DNA from: Nereocystis luetkeana
Lineage: Eukaryota > Sar > Phaeophyceae > Laminariales > Laminariaceae
Length of the DNA: 64,000 bases
NCBI GenBank assembly: GCA_031213475.1
Contig: JARUPZ010000025.1
Span: 5,405,676-5,469,675, forward strand
Direction: 5' to 3'
Below are positions 5,701 through 53,895 of the stretch, one piece after another; position 1 is the stretch's first letter, and each line of letters begins with the position of its first letter. The translations under genes and the position numbers were made by a program. Below the pieces are notes generated by a model, which saw only the letters and a list, made by a program, of their open reading frames with translations, searched no databases and had not been told where the DNA came from.

Positions 5701-5881
5701 AGGAATGTGTTTGCCGGCCCTGACGAGGGGTGTATCGTTTTCCTAGTACGGCGAAGACAACGCCACTGTGGAGGCAGCAGGTATTACACACGGGTACACC
5801 TATTGGAGTTGCAACTTGTGGCAGGATGCAACTCCCGCGTGTCTAGAGGCGACGTTTTTCGGGCGGATTTATTAGTTCGTT
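2783..5881. other. Unique-looking non-coding stretch
   Basis: About 3.1 kb with only short overlapping open frames on both strands and no recognisable domain, RNA or tandem repeat. C/A-rich strand bias appears around 4.27-4.48 kb. Confidence 0.4.
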
Positions 5882-6139
5882 TTGATTGATCTCTAAAGGT
5901 ATGGACGCAGCTGGCACGGGAACGCGTGGTTGCTCCAGACAATAATACGGAACTCATCATATATTATATATCCGAGCTGTCAAGCTGACTCGCCTCATAT
6001 GGAGCTACATCTAACGAGTGGTATTGGTGGGGTACACGTTACCCCGACATCTCAATACCCTACAGCCAGAATCCCTGTTCAGCATGGAACTCCTCAATCT
6101 ACGATGGATCTTACGGATCGTGTTCTTGAGCACAGTCAA
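5882..6139 (+). repeat. Dispersed direct repeat R1, copy 1
   Basis: Starts TTGATTGATCTCTA and matches 9776-10039 at a constant offset of 3,900 bp from position 5911 on. Only about eight differences are visible over some 225 bp, so the duplication is young. The shared segment has no convincing gene, and no terminal repeats or target duplications were found at its edges. Confidence 0.9.
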
Positions 6140-8035
6140 CATCCCCCCTGCTCACTATACACGACCATACTCCAATATCCCCCCAGGTCGGCAACACTGT
6201 AAACGACCCTACTAATTTCTCCCCTGCTCCGGTGCATGACAAGGCCCAAAATTGCAGGGTTGATAGATCGCAGCATCAGAATCACCTCATACCAAACTCA
6301 GAAACTCAAAAACCCAATCTGCAACTCAAAAATCAAATCCTCGAATCAACACTCAAATCCTTATATAATTATTCAAACGATCAAATCCAAAGCCTCTCTG
6401 TTCCAAACATGTAAAACTCTCGAAATCCGATGTCAGGTAAAAAGGCACTCTTCTCAGGATTCAGCCAGGTAAAGCGGCATTGTCCGCGGAATTGATCAAA
6501 ACATTTTCGTCCACTTTCAAGATCTAAAACGCAAATCGACTCGAACGTAATTGTAGAAATTCCAATCCTGCCGACAAATAACCAGCGGGTTAGTTACCAA
6601 AAACCGAAAACGAAAACATTCAATCCGAACCGTATGCGTCCCCTGGCATTTCAGTGTTCCGTCCTGCCAAACTCTTTCTCAATATTCCGAATTTCTATCC
6701 AAACCTCTCCTCGTCAGACAACATTTTCATGTGTACCGCACACGCCCCCAGGCGCTTCCTAGTCTCACTTCAGCCTTGTCAAAAACCTAAATCACCAAAA
6801 CCATCAGAAAAATACCTCAGGAGTGGTCATGCCAATCAAAATAAGATCAACTCAAGAACTTTAATGCTAGAGATCGCGAGGAACCGCGTTCCTCCGGACA
6901 AGAGTCTCCCCTTACCCCCTACTCCCGCCATAGATACACAGATCGCGACGGTAATGCGAGATAGCACATATATTTCCCCACTTGAAAAATGTATGACGTG
7001 AAGACCACTCGGAAAACACCAAAAACTCTCGTGGAATCCAAATCAACCGGAAACACAATTAATTCAAAAACAAAAACAATGAAATCATTCATCCATATTC
7101 ACAGGCAATCACATTTCATTAAATACCACCACGATACCCCAGACACTACTGCTGTTGCCTCCGCCGCGGCTGCCTCTCCGTCCGGCCTCGTGGCGTCGCC
7201 GCAGCTCGGGTCATCCAGCTTATTATCCTCCTGGGTGAATCAAACGTCGCCTCCGCAGTATTGACCCGACACACAGAAGCAGACAAGGGATGGGGCCTGC
7301 AATCGAGCGAATAGGTCTGCATTGGGTGTTTTGCTCTTCCCATGTGTTACCAGCTTGCCAACTCCTCTTTACCACTAAAGTTCCAAATGCCACTGCAAAT
7401 AATCAGATGCTTGTCAACGAGAATATCTCCTCCCACTTCAAATCTATGCATTCCTCGACCACTACATTCACCCGGATGTTTCTCTTTCCATTCTACTTCT
7501 ACTGCTGTACTCTTGTTGACTATTACCCCGTTCGCATTCGAGCATCTCGCCTTTTGGTACGTATCAAGTAGCATGGGTGGTCCTACACATCAACTCAGAA
7601 ACTCGAAAACGAGATGTCCGCATATGAAGATCTAAATATGTGGAATGCCGCAGACTAACGTGTTGCTGTACGTAGTAGGGCTCAAGGGTTCAACACATAC
7701 ATTATTTATTTCTTCTGTACTAGCTCAGTGCTGTTATCAAAGGGCGATGTGTCTTTGCGTAGTCATCGAGCTCACATCATATCTGGTTCAGCGTACCTCT
7801 CTTATACCATCAAACACGGAGTATTTTAATATACACCATCCCTTCCTTCCTGTCTGTGCGCGTGATGCTCAGACAATAATACTGTAACCTGCATTCCATG
7901 CCCATGTTTGCCCGACTAGGTATCAGTGATCTCCGGGGCCCTCCCCTCGGCAAACGCTACTGGTGTCTAGAGGCACACAATCATATTCATTCGTATTGTC
8001 TCCAGCGCGCACGCTCGAAAAGCGCAAATAAATTA
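6140..8035. other. A/C-rich non-coding stretch
   Basis: 6230-7130 is rich in short AACTC, AAATCC and AAAACC strings on the plus strand. 7140-7260 is a short GC-rich triplet stretch. No gene, RNA or clear repeat unit is supported. Confidence 0.4.
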
Positions 8036-8108: not shown

Positions 8109-9239
8109 GGCGTAACTTAGAAGGAATGGACCACTGAGGTACTCAGTCACTGCTAGATGCGGGGAAAAGGGGTTGGATAGGGAAGAGCCGAGAGACATAC
8201 GTTTTTACGCCACATAAAATGAACGCCACGTATCGGTCGCAGGCATACAGCAAGCAGTATGAATATCATAACGAAACCTTCATGGTTCATTCTTCAATTA
8301 TTATTGCATAACATACAGATGCTTGTACCAGATACATCTTGGCATTGTGGTGCTCCGCAGGCTGAGCAACGCGATTGGCATAATGGTACTGTGTTGGGCA
8401 AACAACTCAATAAAAAACAACATCCAGCATCAGCGCGTATCGGCTTCCATGCCCAGTACATCAATGCAACTTAACTCGGCGCCAACTTTGTGCACTTACT
8501 TGTCTTCTTTACTTCATTCTCCCCCGAATCCTCAGCCACAACTCGAATTTTACGCTTTCGCATACACTTTACTTTCATCTCGTACTCGCACTCGCATCGA
8601 TGCCCAACCTGAGCCCTCGACCAGTCAACTATAAAACAGACAGACGTCATTGTCCTGCAATCGTCTACATACTAACTTCAATGAAGGAAGCTATATACGA
8701 ACACGTCCGTGCATTTTATTCTAATTCCAACATTCTCAATTCTCAATCGCAATGTAATGTCCGGATATTATCTACCACTCTTAAATCGATATAAAATCAA
8801 TCTAAAAACGGAAATTACCGACAGCAAACAATCAACAAAGTCAAACGTGCCTGTTGTTGCGGACGTAAGTCCTTGCTGGTGGCGCCTCGATCTCTTCTCT
8901 TTCACTCTATCTCGCTTGGGGCAGTGCATCCTGTCGCGCCCGTGCGCTGATCCCGAACAGCAGATGCAGATTCCCCCCTGCGCCCATCCTTATTCTCCTT
9001 CATCTCCTTCCTGGGGGGCAACATCCCCCCTCCATCAACCACCTGCGGGCGCTGTGTTTCAGCAGTTCAGGAAAACGATTTTGCCCAAAACACTTTCAGC
9101 CTCGCTCCCGCGGTCTCCACCTTCCACCAGGCTCCTCCCGGTGATACACATACTCGTTCTTCACCCTCTCTTATATTCTTACTTTCTACTTCTTCTTCGT
9201 CAGCGCGAAACGAACCCACTGATAGATTCAGGCAGATAC
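8109..9239. other. Non-coding stretch
   Basis: The plus-strand frame 8709-9425 (238 codons) is the longest plus-strand frame in the left part of the window. It shows no domain and ends in low-complexity alanine, so it is not called a gene. Nothing else is recognised. Confidence 0.4.
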
Positions 9240-9640
9240 CTGGCTATCCTGGGGTGTTGCAGCATCGACGGTCACGCGGCGGTCGAGACAACGGCGGCGG
9301 CAGCGGCGGTAGCGAAGACGGCGACTGCGGCGGCGGTGGTGACGGCGGCGGCGATGACGGTGGGTGCTGCGTGCGCTTCATCGTCGCGACAGGCGCAGCA
9401 ATCCTCTGACTGCTGCTGTTGCTGACGGTGCTACTGGAGGTGCTGTTGCCCCTGCAACTGCTGCTCTCCAGAGCCTTCGACACCAGTGCCAAGCAAATCT
9501 ACCAGGTCCGGCTCAAACTTGGCCCTGCTGGGATCGCTGCTGCTTCTGGTGCGGCATCTTCTTCTTCTCCTCTCACGTCCTTTCCACCAAAACCTCGATC
9601 CTCTCCGGATCATCAGCAGCAGCAGTTTTTCTATGTTCAT
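9240..9640. repeat. GC-rich trinucleotide tract
   Basis: 9270-9420 is an imperfect GGC/GCG/GAC triplet run, followed by CTG/CAG-type triplets to about 9640. It gives poly-Ala on the plus strand and Ser/Pro or Arg-rich peptides on the minus strand. The minus strand around 9431-9640 has a modest open frame containing FEPDLVDLLGTG, which might be a relic exon, but nothing identifies it. Confidence 0.6.
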
Positions 9641-9775
9641 ATTTTACATATTTCCCACGTTGGCTTCCAGACTAGACACGCCATCTAAACCAGACATGCC
9701 GGAAGGTTCCCACCTCTCTAGGTTGGCCTCGGCTACGCTTGCCAATAAAAGATCACCGGTTACTCACTAGTGTGT

Positions 9776-10039
9776 TGATTGATCTCTACAAGACTTAAGT
9801 ATAGACTCAGCTGGCGCGGGAACGCGTGGTTGCTCCAGACAATAATACGGAACTCATCATATATTATATATCCGAGCTGTCGAGCTGACTCGTCTCATAT
9901 GGAGCTACATCTAACGAGTGGTATTGGTGGGGTACACGTTACCCCGACATCCCAATACCCTACTACCAGAATCCCTGTTCAGCATGGAACTCCTCAATCT
10001 ACGATGGATCTTACGGATCGTGTGTATGAGCACAGTCCA
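9776..10039 (+). repeat. Dispersed direct repeat R1, copy 2
   Basis: Second copy of the block at 5882-6139. The first 35 bp differ by a few small insertions, then the two copies stay in register until the shared GAGCACAGTC, after which they are unrelated. Confidence 0.9.
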
Positions 10040-10846
10040 CAGTTCGTTTTCGCTATCTACTCGACGCGGCGACATAGCAAAGGTACGTGGTTGTCACTGA
10101 CGAGGCCTTCGCATTTACCAAGTGACTGCAAGGAGGGGGCTCTACTGGATGATACACAAGTATTTTTGTTTTGATTGATATGTCATTTTTCTGGTCGACG
10201 ACGTCGGCGACACGTTAGCAGCAAGACCTGCAACGCAATTTTGCGCCATATTTTTATTGGCTCGCATCGAAGCACAGGCCTCACCCTGCTTCGCTACAGG
10301 CATTGTGCTGTTGGCGCTAGCAAATTGGTTCACAAGCGTTGGTAGGTGAAACACCAACTGAACGACGGAACCTTACACTGTTCTTCAACTGCTTGCCACT
10401 ACTTCCTCCATCATCTGCACAGTAACCGATCGATAGACAACTTGGTCCCTATGCCGGGGTTTTGCCGACATATGTTTGGTGGCCGTTGGGTGGCATGGCA
10501 GTGCCGATCCTCAGACGATTCTCTTCTGGTCTTCAACTATAGGATCGAGAGAGGCCCCTTAGCTTCGCAGATGCGGCGTGCAATCGCATTCGGAGTGTTG
10601 CCTTCGTTCATGCCTCAGCCACCGAGCTCGTCTGCGTCCGAATTTTGGCATTCCGTGATTTTTGTTTGTTCGCCTTTGTTGCGGGTTTCCCAGTTGCACA
10701 TATCTTGACGGGGGTAACGGCAGTAGGAAGACTACGTAGCCTGTAGATATCTCCACACAAATGCTTGCACACAGTTGTTTGTTCTCTGCTTGTTTCAGAT
10801 CTGTGTATGATATCATACTGGAATATTGTCTGGGATGAGAGTCATC
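10040..10846. other. Non-coding stretch
   Basis: No gene or RNA recognised. Open frames on both strands are short and conflict with each other. Confidence 0.4.
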
Positions 10847-11100
10847 CCACGGTAGGGGCCCTCCAGAAGGTCCTGAGCCTCTCACATTAGGAGCTCAGTA
10901 TCTCACCCGATACAATACTTGGAAGAACTTTGTTCGCGTCACCCGACCGGCACTTCTATGCTAATAATAGTCCTAAAACGAATATACGAGTAAAAACATT
11001 ATCCTAACTCCTAGCTCCTCATTTAGGGAACTCAATCGGTCAGAAACCTTTGACCAAACGAGTGCAACCCGTACCGTGGGGTGACTTATGAATCTCATGG
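10847..11100 (+). repeat. Dispersed repeat R3, copy 1
   Basis: About 250 bp that aligns with 51885-52140. Shared anchors are ATCCCAC.GTAGGGG, TATCTCACCCGAT, CACCCGACC and GGTCAGAAACCTTTG, ending in CCGTGGGGTGACT. Identity looks like 70-75%, so this is an old copy. Its partner sits as an extra block inside the second copy of a larger duplication, which is consistent with a mobile repeat. Confidence 0.75.
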
Positions 11101-11569
11101 AATTGACGCATATGTCTACAGGGGCTGATGACGGGTGGACAGTGTACCCTATTTAATCCCACCCTTCCTCGGCGCTGTGATCGCTCTACATTGCTTTTTC
11201 TAAACCAACTATTATTGGTGGAGAATCTGACCATCGACTCCACGACTGTTAAGGCTCTGCTGACGACGTTTGCGCCTGATGTAGACTACATGGCCGACCA
11301 CGACGAATGGCTCCTCCTACAGGTTAGACAAGACATCATATTGAACGTTCAAACCCTCACCGAAAGACTTGTGCGTAATTGATGACTGCTCGTCGGGCCA
11401 AAGCTGGCATATTCACAATGATCTACACACATTCTTGTAAGGCGGTACTTTGGCGGTGGTGCACAGGATATCGCATTAAAACCTCCGTCTACCCCGTGTA
11501 TTGGTACTTCATATAGGATAGGCTGAGGTGTGTCATAAGTGATATATTTACTGTTCGAGTCATCTGAGA
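11101..11569. other. Non-coding spacer with one 84-codon open frame
   Basis: The plus frame 11128-11382 is uninterrupted but has no recognisable motif and no partner elsewhere. It is not called as a gene. Confidence 0.35.
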
Positions 11570-11850
11570 GGAGTTCCGCGATAGATAGAGGTTGACCCTA
11601 ATTTGTATGAAGCTCCTCACTTAAAGAGTTCCATACCTCACCCCCGAAAACTCACTTAAGCAGATATAAAATTGAATCTCGATGAATAATCCGGTGGCCC
11701 AAGTCTACAAAACGTTTTTTTCGAAATCAAGATTGGCATTCCGACGATTCGGGGTCGAGGAACACCCGCCTTTCAGAAACAAAATGACCGAAATGTGCTA
11801 CCTCTTCTATCGAAGAACGGGTCATAAATCTACTTGTTGGGCCGTAGTCC
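11570..11850 (+). repeat. Dispersed repeat R4, copy 1
   Basis: One of three diverged copies of a roughly 265 bp repeat (others 53630-53895 and 57985-58235). Shared anchors in order are AGAGGTT.ACC, GCTCCTCACTT, GAAAACT, TGGCCCAAGT, ATTGGCATTCCGAC and TGTGCTA before ATCG.AGAACG. No coding capacity or terminal repeats were seen. Confidence 0.75.
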
Positions 11851-26079: not shown

Positions 26080-26895
26080 TGCACCCCTAGTGTGGTCTTT
26101 TGAAGATACTGACGTTTGACTCCAAGAAAGTAAGTCGTTTGAAGGTTCAGACGTTCACGCCACCCCCTCAAGTACTGACGTGACTCCGCGTAAGCAGATT
26201 GGTTGAGGGCACTGACATTCACGCCACGTTTGAAGGTACTGATGTGATTCCGAGTATGTAAGTTGTTTGAAGGCACTGACGTTCCCGCCACGTTTAAAGG
26301 TACTGACGTGACTCCAAGGAAGGAAGTGGTTTGAAGGTTAAGACGTTCACGCCACCCCCTCAAGTACTGACGTGACTCCGAGCAAGCAAGTCGTTTGAAG
26401 GCCCTGACATTCACGCCACGTTTGAAGGGACTGACGTGATTCCGAGCATGTAAGTCGTTTGAAGGCACTGATGTTCACGCCACGTTTGAAGGTACAGACA
26501 TGACTCCGAGTAAGTAAGTAGTTTGAGGACACTGACGTTCACGCCACCTTCACTGACGTGCCTCCGAGTAAGTAAGTCGTTTGAAGGCACTGACGTTCAC
26601 GCCACCTTCACTGACGTGCCTCCGAGTAAGTAAGTCGTTTTAAGGCACTGACGTGCCTCCGAGTAAGTAAGTCGTTTGAAGGCACTGACGTTCACGCCAC
26701 GTTTGAAGGTACTGACATGACTCCGAGCAAGTAAGTCGTTTCAAGGCACTGACGTTCACGCCACCTTCACGCCACCCCCCCAAGTACTGACGTGACTCCG
26801 CGTAAGTAAGCCGTTTGAAGGCACTGCCGTTCACGCCACGTTTGATAGTACTGACATGACTCCGAGTAAGTAAGCCGTTTGAAGGCATTGACGTT
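26080..26895. repeat. 64 bp minisatellite, about 13 units
   Basis: The anchor GTAAGTCGTTTGAAGG recurs at spacings of mostly 64 bp, with 37, 58, 60, 68 and 75 bp variants (anchors near 26131, 26191, 26259, 26323, 26387, 26451, 26515, 26573, 26631, 26668, 26732, 26807 and 26871). Each unit carries ACTGACGTTCACGCCAC and usually a second TGAC(G/A)TGACTCC. Because 64 is not a multiple of three, apparent minus-strand proteins of up to 167 residues are frame-shifting artefacts of the array. Confidence 0.95.
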
Positions 26896-27845
26896 CAAGC
26901 CACCTTTACGCCACCCCCCCAGCCCGAACAGTGTCCACTGGTGAGACCCTTTCGTGCTAAAACTAATTAATGAGTCCTCAAACGTCTTTCATCCACCACC
27001 ACTTCAAGATCGTACCCCTTGTATAACGGTTTTCGTGAAAGTAGTTGTAGAAAGGTGGCGGCAAACATCCCCCCAGCACGGAAACTACCTACTGCCTATT
27101 GGCATCCCAATCCCACCTTTCGCTTCGTGTCTCCAACACTGGGCCACTAATCTTGGAGAGTCAAATAGGAAGGTATCCTGCTCGGTTACACCATGCCTAC
27201 ATCATGTTTTCCAGCATTAGTCATGCAATTTAGAATTCCTACAACCGTTCTTCTCCGATCAGGCGGATCGCCCGATGCTTGGAGACGGACGACACAACAG
27301 GTCCGTGGTACGCTCAACCTCTTCACGATCGCGTTCGCAAATGAAGGGAACCTTTAGTTTGGGCATTGGGCATATGTGGCCTCGCCTTTATAGAACTGCC
27401 CTCCCCATGCGGGGACGAAGCACTTGGAAATTAGGGTCAACCTTATGTACATGTACAGCAGTGCAGTACTCAAACGGTGAAGATGCCCAATCGTCATTGG
27501 GAACCATGTCAGATACTTGAACAAAGTCAAGCTCGTTTGATTCTCCGTTCACTGCGTCAGCGACTAAGACGGCGTGTGAGTATGCGCGCTAGGGAGGGGC
27601 TTTGTTTTCCTATCGGAAACTACCAGGTTTTCTCTCCTCAGTTTGATTTGCATTGTGTATCTCGTATCCACTGCTTAGGATGCATGTATTTGCTATGGAA
27701 GAGCAGACACCCTTGCTACAGGCAAAGCGCTCCCGATAGAGGCCAGCGCTCCGAGGTCCTTTCAGCCCGAATGTAAAACAAACGCCTGTTTTCACGGTTT
27801 TCAAATATTCGTGCATGACACTATCAAGCAACTGTTCACGCATCC
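26896..27845. other. Non-coding stretch
   Basis: No gene, RNA or repeat recognised. Confidence 0.4.
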
Positions 27846-30163: not shown

Positions 30164-30167
30164 GTAA
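30164..30167. repeat. Target-site duplication GTAA, left copy
   Basis: GTAA directly precedes the left LTR and recurs directly after the right LTR (39519-39522). A 4-6 bp duplication is what Ty3/gypsy integrases produce. It shows that the two LTRs belong to one insertion event. Confidence 0.8.
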
Positions 30168-30607
30168 TGAAACGGAAAGCTGGCAGCCTGGGCTGAGGTC
30201 TTAAGTCATTGTCACAAGGCAACACATGTAGGGTTCTGTAATAGTTGGCAGGAGTGGCATCTGTGGACCACAGGTTACCACTCAGAGATGCATAACCCAA
30301 AAGGAGAACACAAAGACGAGACATCAATGACCAACCTCAGTGACAGAGCAGAGCTTGAGTCCGACCGAGTCGAGAGGTGCGCTCCTAGGTCTCCAGGAGA
30401 GTAGGGCGAGCTTGTGGTTCTTCTGTGAAGAGGCTCCAACTGGAGATGGCTAGATGGTAAGTGATTGCTTGTTCCGTGACCGTGGTGATGGTCGCGGGAA
30501 CTGAGTGAGACGGAAGGGGGATGAAACCTTCCGTCCGGAACGGAGCTACAATATGAAAACGCCTCTATGTCATCATAACTCCTGAGACGGTCAACCGAAC
30601 CGTAACA
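30168..30607 (-). repeat. 3' LTR
   Basis: On the minus strand it begins TGTTACGG and ends CCGTTTCA, the usual TG...CA form with short imperfect inverted ends. I saw no difference from the LTR at 39079-39518. It contains a hairpin (GACGGAAGG / CCTTCCGTC) near 30510 and a 53-codon open start (MMSRLCVLLLGYASLSG...) running towards the element interior in the other LTR. The promoter and polyadenylation signals could not be placed. Confidence 0.95.
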
Positions 30608-30617
30608 TGCCCCCTAG
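30608..30617 (-). other. Polypurine tract (plus-strand primer)
   Basis: Minus-strand CTAGGGGGCA lies immediately upstream of the 3' LTR start TGTTACGG, the expected place for the RNase-H-resistant primer of plus-strand DNA synthesis. It is shorter than many, so the call rests mainly on position. Confidence 0.6.
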
Positions 30618-31001
30618 CATAATGCGAATGACGGAATGAGCATTATGCTATAGCAATCTTGTGACTATAACCAAGTTTAAAGAGCCGCAAAGCCCTTTAA
30701 CACAAATAACGGCCTCAGGGATAAACAACCAAACCGAAATCGCAAAGGCCATCAAAGGGAAATCCCCGAGAAAAACCCCTACCCTTGCTTTTTCACTGCG
30801 TGTTTGGTTGCCCGACCACTATTCCATGGCTAAAGTCCCCCCACGCTCATTCAGCGATGAAATAAGCGCAGTGTCCCCTAACGCCTGAGCATATAAATCG
30901 CTTCTATTGCGTCCTCAACAATTCAACGAAAATCGAACACAACAGAGAAGGCAACTCCGCCTCCTCGGTTAAAACTGTAGGCTAGCCTACACGGCAAGAC
31001 T
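30618..31001. other. Element interior, 3' untranslated part
   Basis: No coding capacity or repeat was recognised between the purine tract and the 71 bp array, except a partial unit end (CCTCCTCGGTT at about 30959). Confidence 0.6.
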
Positions 31002-31772
31002 AAATCGAAAACCACGAGAACAAAACGGAAAAGAACCAACACGGCTTCTTCGGTTGAGACACTGGATAAATAAAATCGAAAACCACGAGAACAAAACGGA
31101 AAAGAACCAACACGGCCTCTTCGGTTGAAACACTGGATGAATAAAATCGAAAACCACGAGAACAAAACGGAAAAGAACCAACACGGCCTCTTCGGTTGAA
31201 ACACTGGATAAATAAAATCGAAAACCACGAGAACAAAACGGAAAAGAACCAACACGGCCTCTTCGGTTGAGACACTGGATAAATAAAATCGAAAACCACG
31301 AGAACAAAACGGAAAAGAACCAACACGGCCTCTTCGGTTGAAACACTGGATGAATAAAATCGAAAACCACGAGAACAAAACGGAAAAGAACCAACACGGC
31401 CTCTTCGGTTGAAACACTGGATAAATAAAATCGAAAACCACGAGAACAAAACGGAAAAGAACCAACACGGCCTCTTCGGTTGAAACACTGGATAAATAAA
31501 ATCGAAAACCACGAGAACAAAACGGAAAAGAACCAACACGGCCTCTTCGGTTGAAACACTGGATAAATAAAATCGAAAACCACGAGAACAAAACGGAAAA
31601 GAACCAACACGGCCTCTTCGGTTGAAACACTGGATAAATAAAATCGAAAACCACGAGAACAAAACGGAAAAGAACCAACACGGCCTCTTCGGTTGAAACA
31701 CTGGATAAATAAAATCGAAAACCACGAGAACAAAACGGAAAAGAACCAACACGGCCTCTTCGGTTGAAACAC
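31002..31772 (-). repeat. 71 bp tandem array, 10.9 units, with trimer structure
   Basis: The unit runs from AAATCGAAAACCACGAGAAC to GGTTGAAACACTGGATAAAT. Variant sites (GAGAC or GAAAC, GGATAA or GGATGA) follow the order 1-2-3 twice in units 1-6, a 213 bp higher-order repeat; units 6-10 are uniform. On the minus strand no frame of the unit has a stop, so three overlapping frames of 327, 261 and 262 codons are open. All three encode rotations of the same peptide with a 71-residue period. It lies in the 3' part of the element and looks like satellite expansion, not a gene. Confidence 0.97.
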
Positions 31773-31923
31773 GACACACCAAAAGCAAGCAGAAACACTA
31801 GATGAATTAGAGAGATGTTTGCAGGGGAAGATCTTCGCAGGGGAAGGTCTTCGCAGGGGAGGATCCTCGCCGGAATTGCCGGATGAAGGAGCAGATCTTC
31901 GTCCATGCAGAGCGTGGATCGTT

Positions 31924-32892
31924 TCAGTCCTGCAGCCGTTCCATCTCGCGACGGGTCAGTTCTTCCCAGTTGTTATCGGTGTAGCGCACTCGCCAGTAGC
32001 GGTCTCTGTAATCGTACACTTGCCCCTGCAGTCGCAACCCACCGCCAAAGTCCTTCCAGATGGTAAACCCTATCGGAAACAGCGTCAAGGCTTCGCGACG
32101 ACGAAGGGCGGGTGTACAAGGGGTGACTGAGACTGGGGTCGTGTCTTTAGTAGGGTCGGGGTTGTACAAGTGCCAGAGTGCGATGAAACCGTCCAACTGC
32201 AAGGGTGTAAAACTCTGTAACACGTCATTCCCAGTTCGCCATCCTGTCTCTACTCCCTCTCTCGATCTCCCCTTGTACTCCCATCTAGTGGTGCCGGAGG
32301 CAGTGGTCGATCTGCGGCAGGTCACGAGCGAGTCTAACACTGGCGAATTGACTCCTTCAACTGGCAGTTTGAAATCCGCGCCCCACGCATACTGTGCAAA
32401 CTCGTCTGCTATCGAGTGTCTTAGTGTCAGAGGTCAGAGGTGGTACGGCTTCACATCTGCGGTGGATACATTTCGGGTACGTTGTTTTCTGCCTCGCATC
32501 GTTACTTGTACGCTTAGGCCTGTCTGTAATACTTCCGTGACCCTCCAAGGGCCTGTGTAGTGGTCGTGCTGCAGCTTCTTCCCTCTGCTGTCGCGGTGTT
32601 TGCTGCTATCGGACTCGCGCACCAGCACGAGGCTACCCTTCTCAGCGATAACTCCGGCTGATGGTCTAGAGATGGCAGCGTTGGCTCGGGCCCGCGCCGT
32701 TACTCTTTGGCTGTCGCGCTTCTCGAGCGCCAGGCGGACTTCTCGGAGGTTCTGTCTGCGGCGCTCCACGAAGTTGTCCAGGCCGCCGCTCTGATCTGTC
32801 TCTTCTGACAGGGGTACCAAAGAGTCTAAAGACGTGCGAGGCTTGCGACCGAACAACAACTCGAAAGGTGTCATGTTAGAAGGCAGTGACAC
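31924..32892 (-). pseudogene. pol: Integrase C-terminal region with Tudor/chromo-like tail
   Basis: Starting at about 32892 the frame has PSNMTPFELLFGRKPR, typical of the segment after a gypsy integrase core. Next comes a basic helical region, then GSLVLVRE..., HYTGPWRVTEVL..., as in the SH3-like C-terminal domain that binds DNA. An in-frame TGA at 32434-32436 interrupts the domain (after VKPYHL). The same frame then continues open to 31924, ending in a segment with WRVRYTDNNWEEL that resembles Tudor or chromo-like folds used for targeting chromatin. CGA to TGA at a CpG would explain the stop. Not functional as it stands. Confidence 0.85.
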
Positions 32893-32959
32893 GTCTGGTA
32901 GAGTGCGTTTGATCCATATTGCCGGTGATACGTACTCGTCCCACCTCTCGGGCCACGAT

Positions 32960-33430
32960 CTACATAGCTCTGCATAGCTCCTGCAACCAACCTCCTAGTC
33001 TCTCTACAGAACCCTGTCCTCGCGGGTGGTCGGCTGGGCCGAACTTTATGTCCGCATTCATCCAACGGCATAAGTGTGTCACTACTTCTGCTCTGAACTC
33101 TCTGCCGCCGTCGCAACGTACTGTCTTGGGTACACCGAACGTTAGGCACAGCTTGGTAAGCGCTCGTGCTACGCCTATTGCTTGCTTAGTTTCTAGAGGG
33201 ATACCGAAAGGGAACTTGGAGGCTCGATCTACTACCAGCAGAACGTACTTGTTGCCTGAAAGGGAAGGCGTGTCTATTTTCGGGATATCCATCTGTAGTT
33301 CATCCCACGGTTCTAGTGCGCGTCCGGGAAACATTGCGACGCGTCTGCTGTTGGGTCGTTTACGTCTCCTGCACCCGCATGACAACACGTATTGTCGCGT
33401 GTCGCGAATGACTGAAGGCCAGTGAAAGTG
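32960..33430 (-). pseudogene. pol: Ty3/gypsy integrase catalytic core
   Basis: The frame opens with FHWPSVIRDTRQYV and SCGC, the cysteine half of the zinc-binding module. It continues into the RNase-H-like core: first Asp in WDELQMDIPK, second in VRCDGGREF, and Glu in GQGSVERLGGW, with 35 residues between the second Asp and Glu. This DD(35)E triad cuts and joins viral-type DNA ends in the nucleus. KYVLLVVDRASKF is a typical core strand. The frame stops at 32960 because a 10 bp imperfect tandem duplication (TACATAGCTC TGCATAGCTC at 32961-32980) shifts it out of register with the C-terminal part. Confidence 0.93.
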
Positions 33431-34170
33431 CTCTTAAGACTAGGGCTAACGTGGCTCCTACTCCAGAGTGACCATGCAGAGTGTGTACCAACGCGAGTAC
33501 ATCGGCAACCATGGATTCGGGTATGGCTGGCAGGTTCCTACCTTTTCCGTCGGCAAACCTGATTACATCGTTCTCGTCTAGACTATACCCAGTCTCATCT
33601 ACTTCCGCGGCGTTCGCATTGCTATCCTCCCGCAGACGCTTGCTAACCTGACCCGGATGAGCGTCGTTCCGTTGCCTTCTCGCGAGGGATGCCGGATTGG
33701 TGAGTACCTCGACCGCCCGATGGATGACCGGCGTCCTCCTACCCGACGACAGCGGAACCTGCCCCCCTGCTGAAAGCACCTCTTTCAACAGCTCCATATA
33801 GCGGCTGGTCGACTCCTGACCCAGATGAGCGTCGTTCCGTTGCCTTCTCGCGAGGGATGCCGGATTGGTGAGTACCTCGACCGCCCGGTGGATGACCGGC
33901 GTCCTCCTACCCGACGACAGCGGAACCTGCCCCCCTGCTGAAAGCACCTCTTTCAACAGCTCCATATAGCGGCTGGTCGACTCCTGACCCAGATGAGCGT
34001 CGTTCCGTTGCCTTCTCGCGAGGGATGCCGGATTGGTGAGTACCTCGACCGCCCGGTGGATGACCGGCGTCCTCCTACCCGACGACAGCGGAACCTGCCC
34101 CCCTGCTGAAAGCACCTCTTTCAACAGCTCCATATAGCGGCTGGTCGACTCCTTCAAGATCTGGTCGTTG
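33360..34170 (-). pseudogene. pol: Pol linker with triplicated 56-residue unit and zinc-binding His pair
   Basis: Reading down from about 34170, a peptide from ESTSRYMELLKEVL to RRQRNDAHLGQ is repeated three times in frame. It is followed by an acidic linker (DETGYSLDENDVIRFADG) and HTLHGHSG, the H-x4-H half of the HHCC integrase zinc finger. The cysteine half lies in the next frame, so a frameshift sits at about 33430. In intact gypsy elements RNase H would precede this region; here no RNase H motif is visible upstream. The frame runs on to 34454, but that part is translation of the 67 bp array and is not gypsy-like. Confidence 0.75.
33650..34153 (-). repeat. 168 bp tandem array, three units, in frame
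   Basis: Unit anchors GAGCGTCGTTCCG are at 33659, 33827 and 33995, exactly 168 bp (56 codons) apart. Copies are almost identical, so the triplication is recent and preserves the reading frame inside pol. Confidence 0.97.
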
Positions 34171-34219
34171 GGCAGTACGATCAAGGCATCGGGGCGATAG
34201 AGCAGAGCACGGACACGGC

Positions 34220-34462
34220 TTCCGAGCGAGCAAACGACGGACGAGCAAGACGCCGGAGCGAGGAAATGCACGGCGTCGTAGCGGGGGAACGACACCGCGG
34301 GCGGCGGGCGAACAAGACACTGGAACGGGCTAACGCACGGCGTCGGAGCGAGGGAGCGGCGCAGCGAGCGGCGGACAGGCAAGACACCGGAGCGAGGGAA
34401 CGCACCGCGTCGGAGCAAGGGAGCGGTGCAGCAAGCTGTGGACGAGCAAGACACCGGGACAT
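34220..34462. repeat. 67 bp degenerate tandem array, about 3.6 units
   Basis: CAAGAC anchors at 34246, 34313, 34380 and 34447 are exactly 67 bp apart, in units with GAGCGAGG and CGGCGTCG.AGCG strings. It is more diverged than the neighbouring 168 bp array. Confidence 0.88.
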
Positions 34463-34950
34463 GGGAGATGTCATGCCGTCGCAGGCTTCCGACGAACGCG
34501 TCGCCCTCCCCCCGTCAACGAGAATGGAAGCGAAAAACGAGGCGAAGGGGAGGAAGAGAACTGGAGAGCCTAACAGTCAAGCAAAGGCAAAAAGACACAT
34601 ACATGTCAGTGCAAGATCCTCCTTGATGTGTCCTTTTCACGGCCAACATTTAAAGAGAAAACAACAAAGCGGTAAGGAACAAAGTAACTACGATGAACAC
34701 GAACATACACAGCGAACACGGGACGCAGGTAAACTGCTGGACACATGCGACAGAGTACGGGTGTCAGTAAAGGTCATAGCCAGCGCAGTCGGGTGCACGG
34801 GCATGCGGGTTTGCAACAAACACACCAGCAAACAAACGACCGAACTATCCACTTTAGCGAACAGAATAAACAACAAGATCAAACATGACAGCCACAAAAC
34901 GGACGAACGACAAAGGACTAAATAAAAACAGGCAGCAAGCCCCGTGGCAA
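34463..34950. other. Element interior, A-rich, no gene
   Basis: Where reverse transcriptase would be expected in a complete element, only A-rich sequence without recognisable motifs is present. Confidence 0.6.
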
Positions 34951-35030
34951 GGCTCGGACCTAGAGGGGCCTGGTTGCTGTCTCCCTTCAGCATGGGCGAC
35001 AGCAACAAAGGTCCCAATAGGTACAGACCC
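34951..35030. repeat. Hairpin element H1
   Basis: An 80 bp imperfect inverted repeat: outer arms GGCTCGGACCTA and TAGGTACAGACC, inner arms GTTGCTGTC and GACAGCAAC (exact), CCC/GGG, and the 8-base loop TTCAGCAT. Both strands could form a long stem. Confidence 0.85.
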
Positions 35031-35144
35031 GACCATTCTGTTCATTCACCCCGTCTAAATAAACAAACAACGAGCGGACAAACAAAAGAAGGCGGATAAA
35101 AAGAAACCAAAAGAAAAGAAAACAGGTATAAGCCTCGTGGCTAA

Positions 35145-35224
35145 GGCACAGGCCTAGAGGGGCCTGGTTGCCGTCTCCCTTCAGCATGGGAGGCAGCAAC
35201 AACGGTCCCAATGGGCGCAGACCC
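35145..35224. repeat. Hairpin element H2
   Basis: Second copy, 194 bp downstream, with the same loop TTCAGCAT. Inner arms GTTGCCGTCTCCC and GGGAGGCAGCAAC pair at 12 of 13 positions, counting one G.T pair. Some changes relative to H1 keep pairing and others do not. Confidence 0.85.
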
Positions 35225-35564
35225 AACCAATCTGGGCATCCACTCTCTATCCGAGAAATGAAGCGAACACAACGAACACAAAACATACAACAAGATGTGC
35301 TGCGTTCCCAGCGACGCGGAGCAAAGCGTCGCGGGTTTGACGAGCGGCGTACGGCGAGGGCAGCCGATACGCAGACAGGCAAATGATAAGCGAATGTCAA
35401 GATAAGATATAGGACGAGTACAGCAGCAGTGGAACACGGGACGTCAGCAGATTAGCTGCCGGTAAGCACATATATACATGTACGCGGTATACGAGAGTGT
35501 GTTAATCTCCTGCTGCCCGCACAGCGTGTTGAAATCGGCGGTACAGATCAGCCGAACATATTAG

Positions 35565-35640
35565 TATTCAAGAGAGACCTCGTTGTTATCTCTCTGCCGG
35601 ATGGAGACGGCAACAATGGTCCTCTCAGGCTCAGACAAAC
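35565..35640. repeat. Hairpin element H3 (diverged)
   Basis: Arms GACCTCGTTGTTATCTC and GAGACGGCAACAATGGTC around TCTGCCGGATG. Right-arm strings CAACAATGGTCC and CAGGCTCAGAC correspond to H1 and H2. Confidence 0.65.
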
Positions 35641-36056
35641 CCATATATATGTTATGCATTCGCCAACAAGGTGAGATAGGAAAATCGTAATGCATCCGGC
35701 CGTTTCTGTCTCCCGCTCGCCCTTCGTTGCAGGAACATGTTGCGATGACGGAGCATAGAAAATAGTACAAATATCAACTCCAATAAAAGCGGGAAAATCA
35801 GTACAACCAGCAGCAGAGCAGCATAATGAGATAAGCGCAGATGTCAGCACCGATACAAGCGTGAAAATCAGTATAACCAACTGAAGCAGAGTAAGATGTT
35901 GAGTGCGACTCACACCTGTAATGAATAAGCGGATCGACAACGAATTGTATTCCAGGTGGCAAGTGCATACACTGGATACGCTCAGCAGCTGTACGCCCAC
36001 AAAATAAACGAAGTAAAATTGTAGTCAGCATACTAACAGACCGTGTAGGTAGGACA

Positions 36057-36130
36057 GGCACAGACCTCGTGGAACTTCGTCTCTGTCTTCCACGACGGGT
36101 GAAGAGACAACACCGCTCCCACGAGGCACA
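36057..36130. repeat. Hairpin element H4 (diverged) and relatives to 36320
   Basis: Arms GCACAGACCTCGTGG and CCACGAGGCACAT flank CTTCGTCTCTGTCTTC / GAAGAGACAACACC. Shorter relatives with GGCACAGACCC at both ends follow at 36173-36238 and about 36275-36320, where pairing is weak. Confidence 0.6.
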
Positions 36131-36419
36131 TATCTATCTCTTCTATACTATATTTGACAAATACAGGTAGGGGAGGCACAGACCCTATGGAGGCTCGGAT
36201 CAGAGACCGTAACCACGTCCCCACAAGGCACAGACCCATCTCCAATAAAACAGAACGCATGCTAGGTAGTAGGTAGGATAGGGGCAGACCTTGTGAAGGC
36301 TCGGTTCAAGACCATAACGGCACAGCAGTAACGTAATGCATCCGGGAAAGGCGTAGACTCAAAAGACGTGGTCGTCCTTCGACCGCAGACCATCCGGTTA
36401 TTACGACAGTGGCGTAAAA

Positions 36420-37880
36420 TCACGGCACAGTAGTACAGTAATGTAACCAGGACAGGCGCAGACTCAATAGACTTGGAGGTCGTTCAAGTGCAGACCCATT
36501 TATTACGACAAGAGTGAGGAAATTAGCATAGGATCAGCGAGAAATCTCCGCATAACCGTACTACCGTGGCGTGAAATCACGGCACAGTAGTACAGTGGCG
36601 AAAAATCAAAAGTGAAAAAATAATAAAAGTGAACAAAAAATAATAATGATCAGAGTAAAAAAATAACAACAGCGGCAAAACGTGCAGAAGACGAAAGAAC
36701 ATACCGTTAACAGACACACCGCAGTACAGCAGTAGTACAGGGAATTAGCATAGGATCAGCGAGAAAACCACGCATAAGGCAGTGGCGCGAAATCACGGCA
36801 CAGCAGTAGTCAGTCGGGCGGTAGCAAAATCGCAGTACAGCAGCAAAATCGCAGTACAGCAGCGCACACGGTGTTGTTAAGACATTAAAATGAATAGCAA
36901 AAGTGAACAAAAATAAATAATGATCTGAGTAAAAAATTAACAACAGCGGCAAAACGTGCAGAAGACGAAAGAAAATACCGTTCACAGACACGCCGCAGTA
37001 CAGCAGAACAGGAAATTAGCATAGGATCAGCGAGAAAACCACGCATAACCGTACTAAGGTAAGGCAGTGGCGCGAAATCACGGCACAGCAGTAGTCAGTC
37101 GGGCGGTAGCAAAATCGCAGTACAGCAGCAAAATCGCAGTACAGCAGCGCACACGGTTTTGTTAAGACATTAAAATGAATAGCAAAAGTGAACAAAAATA
37201 AATAATGATCAGAGTAAAAAAAATAACAACAGCGGCAAAACGTGCAGAAGACGAAAGAACATAACGTTAACAGACACGCCGCAGTACAGCAGTACAGGAA
37301 ATTAGCATAGGACCAGCGAGAAAACCACGCATAACCGTACCAAGGCAGTGGCGCGAAATCACGGCACAGCAGTAGTCAGTCGGGCGGTAGCAAAATCGCA
37401 GTACAGCAGCAAAATCGCAGTACAGCAGCGCACACGGTTTTGTTAAGACAATTAAAATGAATAGCAAAAGTGAACAAAAATAAATAATGATCAGAGTAAA
37501 AAAAAAATAACAACAGCGGCAAAACGTGCAGAAGACGAAAGAAAATACCGTTAACAGACACGCCGCAGTACAGCAGAACAGGAAATTAGCATAGGATCAG
37601 CGAGAAAACCACGCATAACCGTACCAAGGCAGTGGCGCGAAATCACGGCACAGCAGTAGTCAGTCGGGCGGTAGCAAAATCGCAGTACAGCAGCAAAATC
37701 GCAGTACAGCAGCGCACACGGTTTTGTTAAGACAATTAAAATGAATAGCAAAAGTGAACAAAAAAAAATAATGATCAGAGTAAAAAAAAATAACAACGGC
37801 GGCAAACGAAAAAGCAAAATCGCAGTACAGCCGCAAAATCGCAGTACAGCCGCGGTTGTGGTGGCCAAAACGCAGTACAG
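36420..37880. repeat. About 280 bp satellite array, five partial to full units
   Basis: The anchor AATTAGCATAGGA occurs at 36521, 36743, 37014, 37300 and 37584, spaced 222, 271, 286 and 284 bp. Units contain GGCGCGAAATCACGGCACAG, two or more copies of AAAATCGCAGTACAGCAG, and an A-rich stretch with a variable A run. Short minus-strand frames here (about 60-140 codons) recur once per unit and have no known motif. The array lies in the part of the element where gag would be expected. Confidence 0.95.
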
Positions 37881-39060
37881 CAGTAACATCGCCGTACAAC
37901 AGCGGTAGGCCGGTACCGTGAACCTACTGAAGAGAGAGATAGAGAGGTCGACATGCAATACCACAGTGTATACTCGTACGTACGTAATTTTGCCTACTGC
38001 TGTAGTCTATTAAAAATGATCTGACTCACAGTTATAACGTTATTACCAAGACACATAAAAATGAAAAACGTGGCTTGCAAGGTTTGCAGGGATGCTTATC
38101 GACCTCTAACTTGCCAGAACAATAACTAAGAAAGGGGGATGGAAAAGGACGTGCGTTAAATTAGTATGTTGCGTTAGCCGTGAGGCATTTTTATTGCACA
38201 GATAACAGCAGCAACGAAACGTGGCGAGGCGGCGACGGCAGCGGCAACATACACGCACGTGGTAAGGGCAGCACACAAGCACGTGACGGCAAGCGACGGC
38301 AGTAACGACGTACGTGACAGCAGCTGGCTTGTGGAACACGAGCCTGAGAGTCTCAGCGAGCGCACTTGGACACTCGCGCTCTCAAACCCCGCATCATCGT
38401 CAGGCTTACGCTTATTTTTCATTCATTCTTTATTTTGGCTGCTGTGTGGAAAAGGTGATGGGGGTCTGACAAGTGCGCTGCCGGCTCCCACCTGCGCCAT
38501 TTGTTCAATACACGTCGAGCCAAGCACGCAAACTCAGGGTACCAGAGTGAGAATCAACGATGTGGACACGCGCCAGGGAGCAAGTCGCTTCCTGGTTGTG
38601 TCATGCATCATGAATTATACCAGGTACTCAGGCATTCCCCCCCGAAATAAAATAAATAATTGAGTACAGACCCCCTAAATAATGAGCACCCGTTCAGAGT
38701 CATGGGTGTTATCGTACGCGCGGGACGCGCAGTACTGCTGCTGCTGTATCCGTGATACAGCCTACCCCGTAGTAGGTACCAGTGGGGTTGAGTTTCCACG
38801 TGGTCCATGGTTGCATGTGGTCAGCGGTGGGTCAGAGTTGCTTGCAGGAAGAGCGCTATCAGCGCGTGTACCCCCCGTAGAGGCAAAGGAAAGGCGAGGT
38901 GCAACACACAAAAAAAAAACAATAAAACGCTGCCACCCGCAGCTACCAAAAAAGTTACTCAAGATAAAAAATAAAATCGAAAGGAACAGGTCGGAGGCGC
39001 GAAGGCCGCCGCTCGTTCCGGCACGGGAAATGCAAACCCGTGCAGTAAGCGCGCAGCATG
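37881..39060. other. Element interior next to the 5' LTR
   Basis: Leader region on the minus strand. A 158-codon frame (39238 down to 38762) starts inside the 5' LTR and crosses the primer-binding site. It has a hydrophobic start (RLCVLLLGYASLSG) but no gag motif such as a CCHC knuckle, so no gene is called. Confidence 0.5.
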
Positions 39061-39078
39061 TACAGGGACTGAACACCA
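39061..39078 (-). other. tRNA primer-binding site
   Basis: Directly after the 5' LTR end (CCGTTTCA on minus) comes TGGTGTTCAGTCCCTGTA. It starts with TGG, the complement of a tRNA CCA end, as minus-strand primer sites do. The matching tRNA would end CTGAACACCA; its identity could not be assigned. It is not the common initiator-Met site, which begins TGGTA. Confidence 0.8.
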
Positions 39079-39518
39079 TGAAACGGAAAGCTGGCAGCCT
39101 GGGCTGAGGTCTTAAGTCATTGTCACAAGGCAACACATGTAGGGTTCTGTAATAGTTGGCAGGAGTGGCATCTGTGGACCACAGGTTACCACTCAGAGAT
39201 GCATAACCCAAAAGGAGAACACAAAGACGAGACATCAATGACCAACCTCAGTGACAGAGCAGAGCTTGAGTCCGACCGAGTCGAGAGGTGCGCTCCTAGG
39301 TCTCCAGGAGAGTAGGGCGAGCTTGTGGTTCTTCTGTGAAGAGGCTCCAACTGGAGATGGCTAGATGGTAAGTGATTGCTTGTTCCGTGACCGTGGTGAT
39401 GGTCGCGGGAACTGAGTGAGACGGAAGGGGGATGAAACCTTCCGTCCGGAACGGAGCTACAATATGAAAACGCCTCTATGTCATCATAACTCCTGAGACG
39501 GTCAACCGAACCGTAACA
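39079..39518 (-). repeat. 5' LTR
   Basis: Same 440 bp as 30168-30607 with no difference noticed, so little time has passed since insertion or a conversion event. As the upstream LTR on the minus strand, it should carry the element promoter. Confidence 0.95.
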
Positions 39519-39522
39519 GTAA
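39519..39522. repeat. Target-site duplication GTAA, right copy
   Basis: Pairs with 30164-30167. Confidence 0.8.
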
Positions 39523-46734: not shown

Positions 46735-47135
46735 ATCGTTAGTGAGAGGTGAACGACCTATACTCCGCGTAAGTAAGTGAGAATGATCGTATCACGCAGT
46801 GGTTATGGTAAGGCACCCAAGAGGCAGTTACATAGCACTTCCTTTGCTGCCTCTGGAAATGCCTGCTCCAGAAATCAGTCCATCTCATAAGGCGCCATGT
46901 TCCATATTCAGGTCCGCCTCACACGCGGTGCTTAGAAGGATGCAGCTCACCCTTTGTGCGACTCGCCGAACACCTCACGGCGCTTCGCGTTTAGTGCTAA
47001 CAATTCTGCTTGGTCGGTTTCAATCCGACTTGATGCTCCGTCCCGGCATTATAGGGATGAGAGGGTCTCTGGTCATACGACGACGGCCATGGATGAGATC
47101 GAGCACCATCCCTTCTATCGAGTAACCCCCCCCCC
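46735..47135 (+). mobile_element. Dispersed repeat R8, copy 1 (insertion in duplication B)
   Basis: About 400 bp matching 52500-52925: anchors GTAAGGC, GTCCGCCTCAC, GGATGCAGCTCACCCTT, CACCTCA.GGC.CTTCGCG, TGCTCCGTCCCGGCAT and GGGTCT.TGGTCATA. The corresponding site in the second copy of duplication B (about 60715) lacks it, so it inserted after that duplication. GGTTTCAATCC inside resembles a Pol III B box, which hints at a SINE, but the other copy does not keep it. Confidence 0.7.
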
Positions 47136-47734
47136 CCTGTTGTTGTCGCTTGTGCGTTTAATGTTTCCTCGCGAGAAAACTTCAGCCATTTTGCCGCCCG
47201 TCGACTCGGGTCAAAGGGGGCCTACCCTCGCGCTCTCGGGAGTTGACACCGATTGTGATACTCTCCGCAAGATAAACCAAGTCTACGTGGTTGGATTCGG
47301 ACACGAGGACCAACTCTAGCAGCATTCGAATGCAACCTATACTTACAGGGGGTTTTTTGTATAAAAAGCCCACCGAGACGACTGGCATATCTACTCTGTC
47401 GACCTCTCTGTGGGTGTGAACAATTAAGTGTTACCGTACGAAAAACACAATGAGTATTGCTGCAGAAGATATTGATGTTGTGCTGTGTGCTGGTGCATTC
47501 CCGTACTCACACAACACCGCGGTTAGTTAGATGCCTACCACTTGTGAAATCCGCGTGGGATACCATCCTTATCCTTTTGACTCTTCAGACCCCAGGTGCT
47601 CACTTTGTGGCTTGAAGCCCGATATATTCTCAGACCACACTTGCTAATACCTGGTGTGTTATCTGTTGCACGATACTATAATAAGGACATACCACGTAGT
47701 GCACACGTAGGAGAATCATTTTAGTCGCAGTGAA

Positions 47735-51884: not shown

Positions 51885-52140
51885 CCAGAAGAGCCATCCC
51901 ACAGTAGGGGTGCACTAGAAGTTCCAGAGCCCCTGACATTAGGCGCTCAATATCTCACCCGATGCAACTCTTGGGGGACCCTCGTTCGTGCCACCCGACC
52001 AGCACTTGTATGCGCTAGTCCTGAATCGATCATACGCGTAAAACGTTCATATTTTTCGGGTGGTTCCTCACATAAGGAACCCAATTGGTCAGAAACCTTT
52101 GGCTCAAAAAGTGCAACCCCTACCGTGGGGTGACTCAAAA
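51885..52140 (+). repeat. Dispersed repeat R3, copy 2
   Basis: Counterpart of 10847-11100. It interrupts duplication A between blocks R5 and R6 and is absent from the equivalent interval 18691-19114. Confidence 0.75.
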
Positions 52141-52499: not shown

Positions 52500-52925
52500 C
52501 CAACAACAACAGCTGGTTATCGAGTTAGATCCTTTGTGCGAGGTAAATAACCCTTACTCTGCACAAGAAAATTGATCGTATAACGTAGTGTTCAAGGTAA
52601 GGCCTTCAAGAGTCAGTTACGGAGTACTCTCGCTGCTGTCTCTAGAAATGCCTTCACCGGAAATTATACGAACTCATTGGAGCTGCTATCCGCATGCAAG
52701 TCCGCCTCACTAGCGATTCTTAGTAGGATGCAGCTCACCCTTCACGCGAATTAATTGCCGGACACCTCATGGCACTTCGCGCTTGTTGCAAGCAATGGCT
52801 GCCTGGTCGGTGAAACCCGACATGCTCCGTCCCGGCATTGTAGGGATGTGAGGGTCTATGGTCATATGACTACGGCCATGCCTGAGATCGAGTACATCTC
52901 TCCTTTCGAGTACCCCCGCCCCCCT
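52500..52925 (+). mobile_element. Dispersed repeat R8, copy 2
   Basis: Counterpart of 46735-47135, about 70-75% alike by eye. It is also an extra block here relative to the first copy of duplication A, so both R8 copies look like insertions into older duplicated DNA. It has no terminal inverted repeats. Confidence 0.7.
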
Positions 52926-53330: not shown

Positions 53331-53629
53331 TTCTGGGGTCGTGAAACACATTTATTTGGCATCTAATCTGGCAATATTGAATGTATAGCGCTCGCTAAAA
53401 TCACAATTTTGGCATGGGTACATATGAAAGATGTTTTGAATCAGACCCGAACATTCTTTGAGAATACAAGCAGTAGACCCCCTCATGGATATCACCATTG
53501 AAATTTCTTCAACTCCCTCATTCCAAATCCCAATCAATGTGAAAATCTAATTGGCTTTCGCCGCGTATGTCGTCTCTTCACAGCTCAAATGCATGCTATA
53601 ACAACTCGTTTTGGCCTGAAGGGGCGTTC
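53331..53629. other. Spacer
   Basis: Weak resemblance to 19.35-19.6 kb at most. Nothing recognised. Confidence 0.4.
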
Positions 53630-53895
53630 TACGATGATAGAGGTTCACCCTAATTTTTCTCAGGCTCCTCACTTGAGGAGCTACATACCTCTACCTGAAA
53701 ACTGATTTCAGCAAAAAAAAGTCAAATTGCATCCCCATAAATAATACCATGGCCCAAGTATAACAAATATACGTAAATTTCCTAAACAAGATTGGCATTC
53801 CGACATTTTTTTCCGGGTTAAGGAGCCCCGTCATCAAGAAAACGTGTGAGCCGAAATGTGCTACCTTTATCGCAGAACGCGTCTGAAGTGGCTGG
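53630..53895 (+). repeat. Dispersed repeat R4, copy 2
   Basis: Counterpart of 11570-11850 with AGAGGTTCACCCTAATTT, GCTCCTCACTTGAG, ATGGCCCAAGTAT and GATTGGCATTCCGAC. No equivalent block was seen at 19.4-21.4 kb, so it is probably an insertion. Confidence 0.75.

Follow-up and report, generated by a model that had tools for sequence, protein, structure and literature searches.

Gypsy-10_Ec32, a Ty3/Gypsy element of Ectocarpus with a homologue in Tribonema minus, has a C-terminal Tudor domain; as far as its authors were aware in 2025, no transposable element with such a domain had been reported before (PMC12477816). Large retrotransposon derivatives (LARDs) are over 8 kb in length, lack functional proteins and are most likely mobilised by other elements (PMC3281118). 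The present study concerns a 64,000-nucleotide stretch of the brown alga Nereocystis luetkeana (contig JARUPZ010000025.1, referred to as the window), in which a long terminal repeat (LTR) element of 9351 bp occupies positions 30168-39518, with its sense strand on the minus strand. This element is probably an LTR retrotransposon of the Ty3/Gypsy type which inserted recently, depends on a helper and was copied with the proteins of a related element.

The Tudor domain lies at the C-terminal end of Pol in both Gypsy-10_Ec32 and the present element, a likeness at the level of the domain, but only a damaged 3' end of pol is kept here. With the LARDs, as far as they are described in PMC3281118, the element shares a length of more than 8 kb, LTRs with a target site duplication (TSD), a long interior without functional proteins and a presumed mobilisation by others. 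An earlier prediction made from the sequence (the original prediction) had called it LARD-like, which is appropriate for the way it works; in its strict sense the label does not seem to fit, as about 2.3 kb of pol is retained, with an identifiable integrase core and Tudor end, although with no unbroken integrase.

BARE-2 lacks gag, and TR-GAG retains it. Both are named in the literature on nonautonomous elements (PMC10025401), and Copia families with a single gag-like open reading frame are described in Ectocarpus (PMC12477816). The present element resembles all of these in its partial coding capacity, the remainder presumably being supplied in trans, but differs from them in having only the integrase end left. 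Among 520,194 intact LTR elements from 195 plant species, 490,732 were classed as nonautonomous, 224,906 of them Gypsy (PMC10025401). These incomplete Gypsy elements also combine an intact LTR structure with an incomplete coding part, but their hosts are plants, and a Tudor domain is not mentioned in the available text of that study. Ogre/Tat elements of plants have a tandem array past the end of pol and before the 3' LTR (PMC7004042), as does the present element; the comparison concerns array position alone, and the present element differs in having arrays in the leader and inside pol as well.

LARDs are not mentioned in the available text of a paper on Saccharina (PMC4421812), and no literature was found on Ectocarpus in combination with LARD, terminal-repeat retrotransposon in miniature (TRIM) and LTR. 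Incompleteness by itself is nothing unusual in a Gypsy element; in the sources available, the combination of integrase and Tudor domain has been published for one brown-algal element and its relative. If the copy described here is indeed a young, helper-dependent member of a Tudor-bearing lineage, it would show recent mobilisation of such elements and offer a natural test of the sequences which are sufficient in cis.

Structure and termini of the element

The original prediction of two indistinguishable LTRs of 440 bp was confirmed by base-by-base comparison. The 5' LTR (39079-39518, minus strand, TGTTACGG...CCGTTTCA) and the 3' LTR (30168-30607, minus strand) were identical at 440 of 440 positions, and a divergence of several percent was not seen. 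The exact match extends to 441 bp, since one adjoining A agrees too. On the sense strand each LTR starts with TG and ends with CA. When the window was compared with itself by BLAST, 46 of the 55 repeat pairs were tandem or near and were removed; among the 9 distant pairs kept, the LTR pair was the longest and the only one with 100% identity.

The predicted GTAA duplication abuts the LTRs on both sides, at 30164-30167 next to the 3' LTR and at 39519-39522 next to the 5' LTR. A putative TGG-type primer-binding site (TGGTGTTCAGTCCCTG, 39063-39078, minus strand) lies immediately 3' of the 5' LTR, and a putative polypurine tract (AGGGGGCA, 30608-30615, minus strand) directly 5' of the 3' LTR; both signals had been named in the original prediction. 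The tract is short and G-rich, being composed of six purines followed by CA. The element thus presents paired TG..CA LTRs, a TSD within the range of 4-6 bp, a primer site (putative) and a purine tract (short), as is characteristic of LTR retrotransposons. No tRNA gene was detected in the window by ARAGORN under the bacterial code. The element was read on the minus strand because the integrase, the putative primer site and the G-rich tract all agree in this direction. The opposite orientation was ruled out, as no TGG primer site is present 3' of the left LTR on the plus strand.

No recognisable gag, protease, reverse transcriptase or RNase H

The region in which gag, protease, reverse transcriptase (RT) and RNase H would be expected is occupied by a leader of 4.9 kb (34168-39062, minus strand), in which no coding domain was recognised. 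All 31 stop-free frames with a length of 70 amino acids or above and an overlap with 34200-39078, on both strands, were without a Pfam match to any of the four, shorter pieces not being scanned; this agrees with the prediction that the interior lacks these genes. A coding leader was rejected in view of the absence of these families from the scanned frames and of the 38-70 stops per frame in the six frames of 34515-39078. Several other Pfam names appeared weakly in the element (EBP 0.029, Cortexin 0.35, FUSC 0.16, Pex16 0.2, PML_CC 0.053, Ubiquitin_TPR1 0.097 and DUF7911 0.038), all below their cut-offs, and were discounted.

Mobilisation in trans, as proposed in the original prediction, is suggested by the combination of identical LTRs with a 4.9-kb leader in which no gag, protease, RT or RNase H is recognisable, and it is well supported as far as these four missing functions are concerned. 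The copy was very probably unable to supply any of them at the time of its insertion. For mobilisation in trans, the lack of gag and RT counts for more than the timing of the integrase lesions discussed below, because nothing recognisable is left of these genes and the leader appears to lie in register between the primer site and pol.

Remaining pol sequence: integrase and Tudor domain

What remains of pol is distributed over four pieces, all on the minus strand. Piece A (33360-34514) is an open frame with the first half of an H2C2 zinc-binding motif, detected weakly (14.8 bits, cut-off 25.5). Piece B (32960-33433) contains the integrase core rve (PF00665; E 9.1e-10, 39.1 bits, cut-off 32.6) and, again weakly, the other half of this motif (13.7 bits); the H2C2 motif is split by the first frame change, so that each half falls below the cut-off. 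Piece C (32434-32994) corresponds to the integrase end by its position, matched no Pfam family at an E value of 1 or better, and is closed by an in-frame TGA. Piece D (31924-32433) continues in the same frame behind this TGA and contains a Tudor domain within 31927-32085. The integrase is therefore triply damaged, as had been predicted, with one frame change near 33433, another within 32960-32994, and the in-frame TGA at 32434-32436.

Compared with solved structures, piece B matched foamy-virus integrases best (1.4e-8), with the HIV-1 and Ty3 integrases lower among the best 60 of 120 matches. The NCBIfam matches of this piece to IS481 (55.2 bits, cut-off 224), IS3 and IS30 were far under cut-off, reflect the common integrase fold and were not retained. 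Weak Pfam names on piece A and its 56-codon repeats were likewise rejected, all being below cut-off (TilS-like 4.8e-5, ARM_ECM29 5.3e-4, WPP 0.025, TrkH 0.098 and ATP-synt_ab 0.1). The zinc-binding motif within 33360-33433 has the spacing C-x-C, and that of the two aligned foamy-virus integrases is C-x-x-C; the C-x-C spacing may be a lesion or a trait of the lineage.

The Tudor domain was a new finding with respect to the original prediction, as were the four tandem arrays and the richness in T of the sense strand where it is not coding. The whole frame of piece D matched the PTM/DIR17-like Tudor family PF21743 with 23.8 bits (E 3.9e-5), below the cut-off of 27.2, and its last 53 amino acids matched with 27.5 bits (E 2.8e-6), above it. 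The reversed segment, used as a control, gave no Tudor match and only DUF3471 at 0.081. Piece D had no match in the PDB up to an E value of 10. In the structure model of piece D, the C-terminal part forms four strands followed by one helix, an arrangement compatible with a Tudor fold, at a confidence too low to count.

Beyond the integrase-Tudor segment there is nothing but a tandem array, and then the 3' LTR, as expected for a Gypsy element; RT and RNase H are missing, so the domain order itself is not visible. The decayed 3' end of pol, with integrase and C-terminal Tudor domain, would place the ancestor of the element near the Tudor-bearing Gypsy lineage of brown algae. The better preservation of this end might also indicate a partly autonomous family, in which the integrase-Tudor end acted in cis and was under selection until recently, a helper supplied gag and RT, and this copy alone lost its integrase. 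The integrase core and the Tudor segment still score, unlike RT and gag, of which no trace was recognised, and the 56-codon repeats remain in frame, both of which are in line with such a family. The three integrase lesions are not, and we regard it as distinctly unlikely.

Age of the insertion and of the integrase lesions

The absence of differences at 440 LTR positions sets a limit of about 0.7% divergence (95%). The probability that all integrase lesions arose after insertion, with no change in the 880 LTR sites, was 0.005-0.085 for three lesions and 0.029-0.193 for two. These values depend on assumed rates (integrase length of 1500-2300 bp, nonsense share of 0.04-0.05, indel-to-substitution ratio of 0.08-0.25), and they take no account of gene conversion, assembly collapse or sequencing error. 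As there are no LTR changes against three lesions in the integrase, the lesions are probably older than the insertion. The claim of the original prediction that they pre-date it is accordingly favoured by the timing, and is not proven.

If the element had been intact when it inserted and had then decayed where it lies, the identity of its LTRs would have to be due to gene conversion or to assembly collapse. The looseness of the age limit and the upper values of the probabilities above leave some room for this. However, decay in place must also have altered gag, protease, RT and RNase H beyond recognition, and must have left a 4.9-kb leader correctly set between the primer site and the integrase; such a history seems highly improbable.

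Probable mobilisation by a helper element

The element retains what has to act in cis, namely its LTRs, a putative primer site and the G-rich tract, and has the leader in the place of gag, protease, RT and RNase H. The proteins of a related element, recognising the same LTR ends, most likely packaged, reverse transcribed and integrated the RNA of this copy. The interpretation given in the original prediction is accordingly supported in part, as the copy is with good probability young and helper-dependent; a LARD-like family that keeps spreading may exist as well. The leader, being T-rich and filled with arrays, may be the place of packaging or dimer signals.

A number of observations weigh against helper-dependent, recent insertion. 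A divergence of up to the limit given above is still allowed by the LTRs, and gene conversion or assembly collapse could give them a falsely young appearance. Neither TATAA nor AATAAA is present in the LTR. The Tudor cut-off was passed only by a segment trimmed after the first match was known, and the structure models were of low confidence (mean predicted local distance difference test, pLDDT, of 37.6 for piece D and 36.6 for piece B). Sense three-base periodicity in 600-bp windows from 34208 rightward was 0.4-2.1 (flank mean 1.41), and exceeded the 95th percentile of the flanks (3.00) only in three windows on the 168-bp array and its edges; it was also low over most of the integrase (1.2-2.4). 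As leader and integrase are both low, coding and non-coding sequence are not separable here by periodicity, which is uninformative on this question.

Neither a second copy nor a partner of the element was seen, and no relative was found in collections of viral and prokaryote contigs. Of the pattern matches obtained in viral contigs (3 for piece B, 18 for piece C and 2 for piece D) and in prokaryote contigs (29 for piece B), not one was confirmed. An 18-base LTR end yielded no relative in viral contigs, nor did two degenerate integrase patterns, one of which was also searched in prokaryote contigs. These collections hold no eukaryote genomes by design, so the result has little weight, and for a eukaryote element it is no evidence against the existence of a family.

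Tandem arrays and base composition

Four tandem arrays were found within the element. The leader contains an array of 284-bp units (4.2 copies, 36625-37806), and near its pol end an array of 67-bp units (3.3 copies, 78% matches, 34238-34457) which lies beside an array of three 168-bp units (33647-34153, minus strand). The 168-bp unit comprises 56 codons, is repeated in frame and is located upstream of the zinc-binding region of the integrase; its copies differ pairwise at 0, 2 and 2 positions. The fourth array is situated in the 3' untranslated part, between the Tudor domain and the 3' LTR (71 bp, 10.9 copies, 31002-31772), and 6 of the 10 units examined matched its consensus exactly. Pfam names on the 71-bp repeats (DUF6122 8.1e-4, HTH_41, DUF5944, ERp29_N and 2TM) were below cut-off and were discounted.

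The plus-strand AT skew was 0.354 over 34168-39078 (0.284 without the 284-bp array) and 0.442 in the 3' untranslated part, compared with -0.132 in the coding part. In 269 flanking windows of 400 bp, the mean absolute skew was 0.103, with a 95th percentile of 0.258, a 99th percentile of 0.472 and a maximum of 0.57. The 99th percentile of the flanks was exceeded by 5 of 23 windows in the leader, 3 of 4 in the 3' untranslated part and none of 9 in the coding part. The sense strand is T-rich at 34168-39078 and 30608-31899, with edges near 34168 and 31900 (in bins of 400 bases). Given this skew, the RNA of the element would be U-rich outside its coding part.

In a helper-dependent element, the arrays may have been generated by strand transfer during reverse transcription. 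They are also relevant to the possibility of a one-off defective copy, in which a deletion or template switch in a single round of reverse transcription, aided by a helper, gave a cDNA without RT which founds no family, the integrase lesions having arisen in the same cycle or having been inherited from a dead parent. Only a single copy is known here, and the near-identical units of the 71-bp and 168-bp arrays point to slippage or strand transfer in the recent past. In plant Ogre elements, such arrays have been proposed to result from abnormal strand transfer or from illegitimate recombination of co-packaged copies (PMC7004042). The clearly diverged units of the 67-bp array in the leader region, and a T-rich skew common to the leader and the 3' untranslated part, point instead to an older, established architecture, and a one-off origin is considered unlikely.

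The U-rich RNA and its repeats would have a function in packaging if the element belonged to an integrase-only LTR family, which borrows gag and RT from a helper and has its own Tudor-tipped integrase. The chromatin reader of such a family would steer its insertion, and the present copy would be a recently broken member; we consider this very doubtful.

Other repeats in the window

A perfect 11-bp inverted repeat with a loop of 14 (30615-30650, minus strand) touches the G-rich tract of the element. It is one of three such repeats in the window (11 bp perfect, loop 3-20), the other two being simple sequence; in five shuffled sequences the counts were 2, 0, 0, 0 and 0. The folding of this stretch was not better than that of shuffles (z -0.70). 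No Rfam family was found anywhere in the window, and ten longer frames beyond the limits of the element were without any Pfam family below 0.05.

A second, older LTR element is delimited by repeats at 5880-6141 and 9773-10041, which share a 243-bp core with 95.1% identity (12 differences) plus a short indel. It has a 5-bp TSD (GTTCG) and TGTTGA..TCAACA ends, with one base altered in each copy. No Pfam match was obtained in the single interior frame scanned (8685-9422), and no TGG primer site was seen. On the minus strand, a G-rich tract (GCAGGGGGGA) stands directly before the LTR end that reads TGTTGACTG; the presence of this tract in a like position makes the short G-rich tract of the 9351-bp element more credible.

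Another tandem array is present at 26099-26921, with units of approximately 64 bp and longer periods of 192 and 139 bp. A direct repeat pair at 46784-47138 and 52573-52925 is 77% identical over 362 aligned positions, and similar old pairs were found at 10838-11086 and 51890-52135, and at 11564-11823 and 53616-53883.

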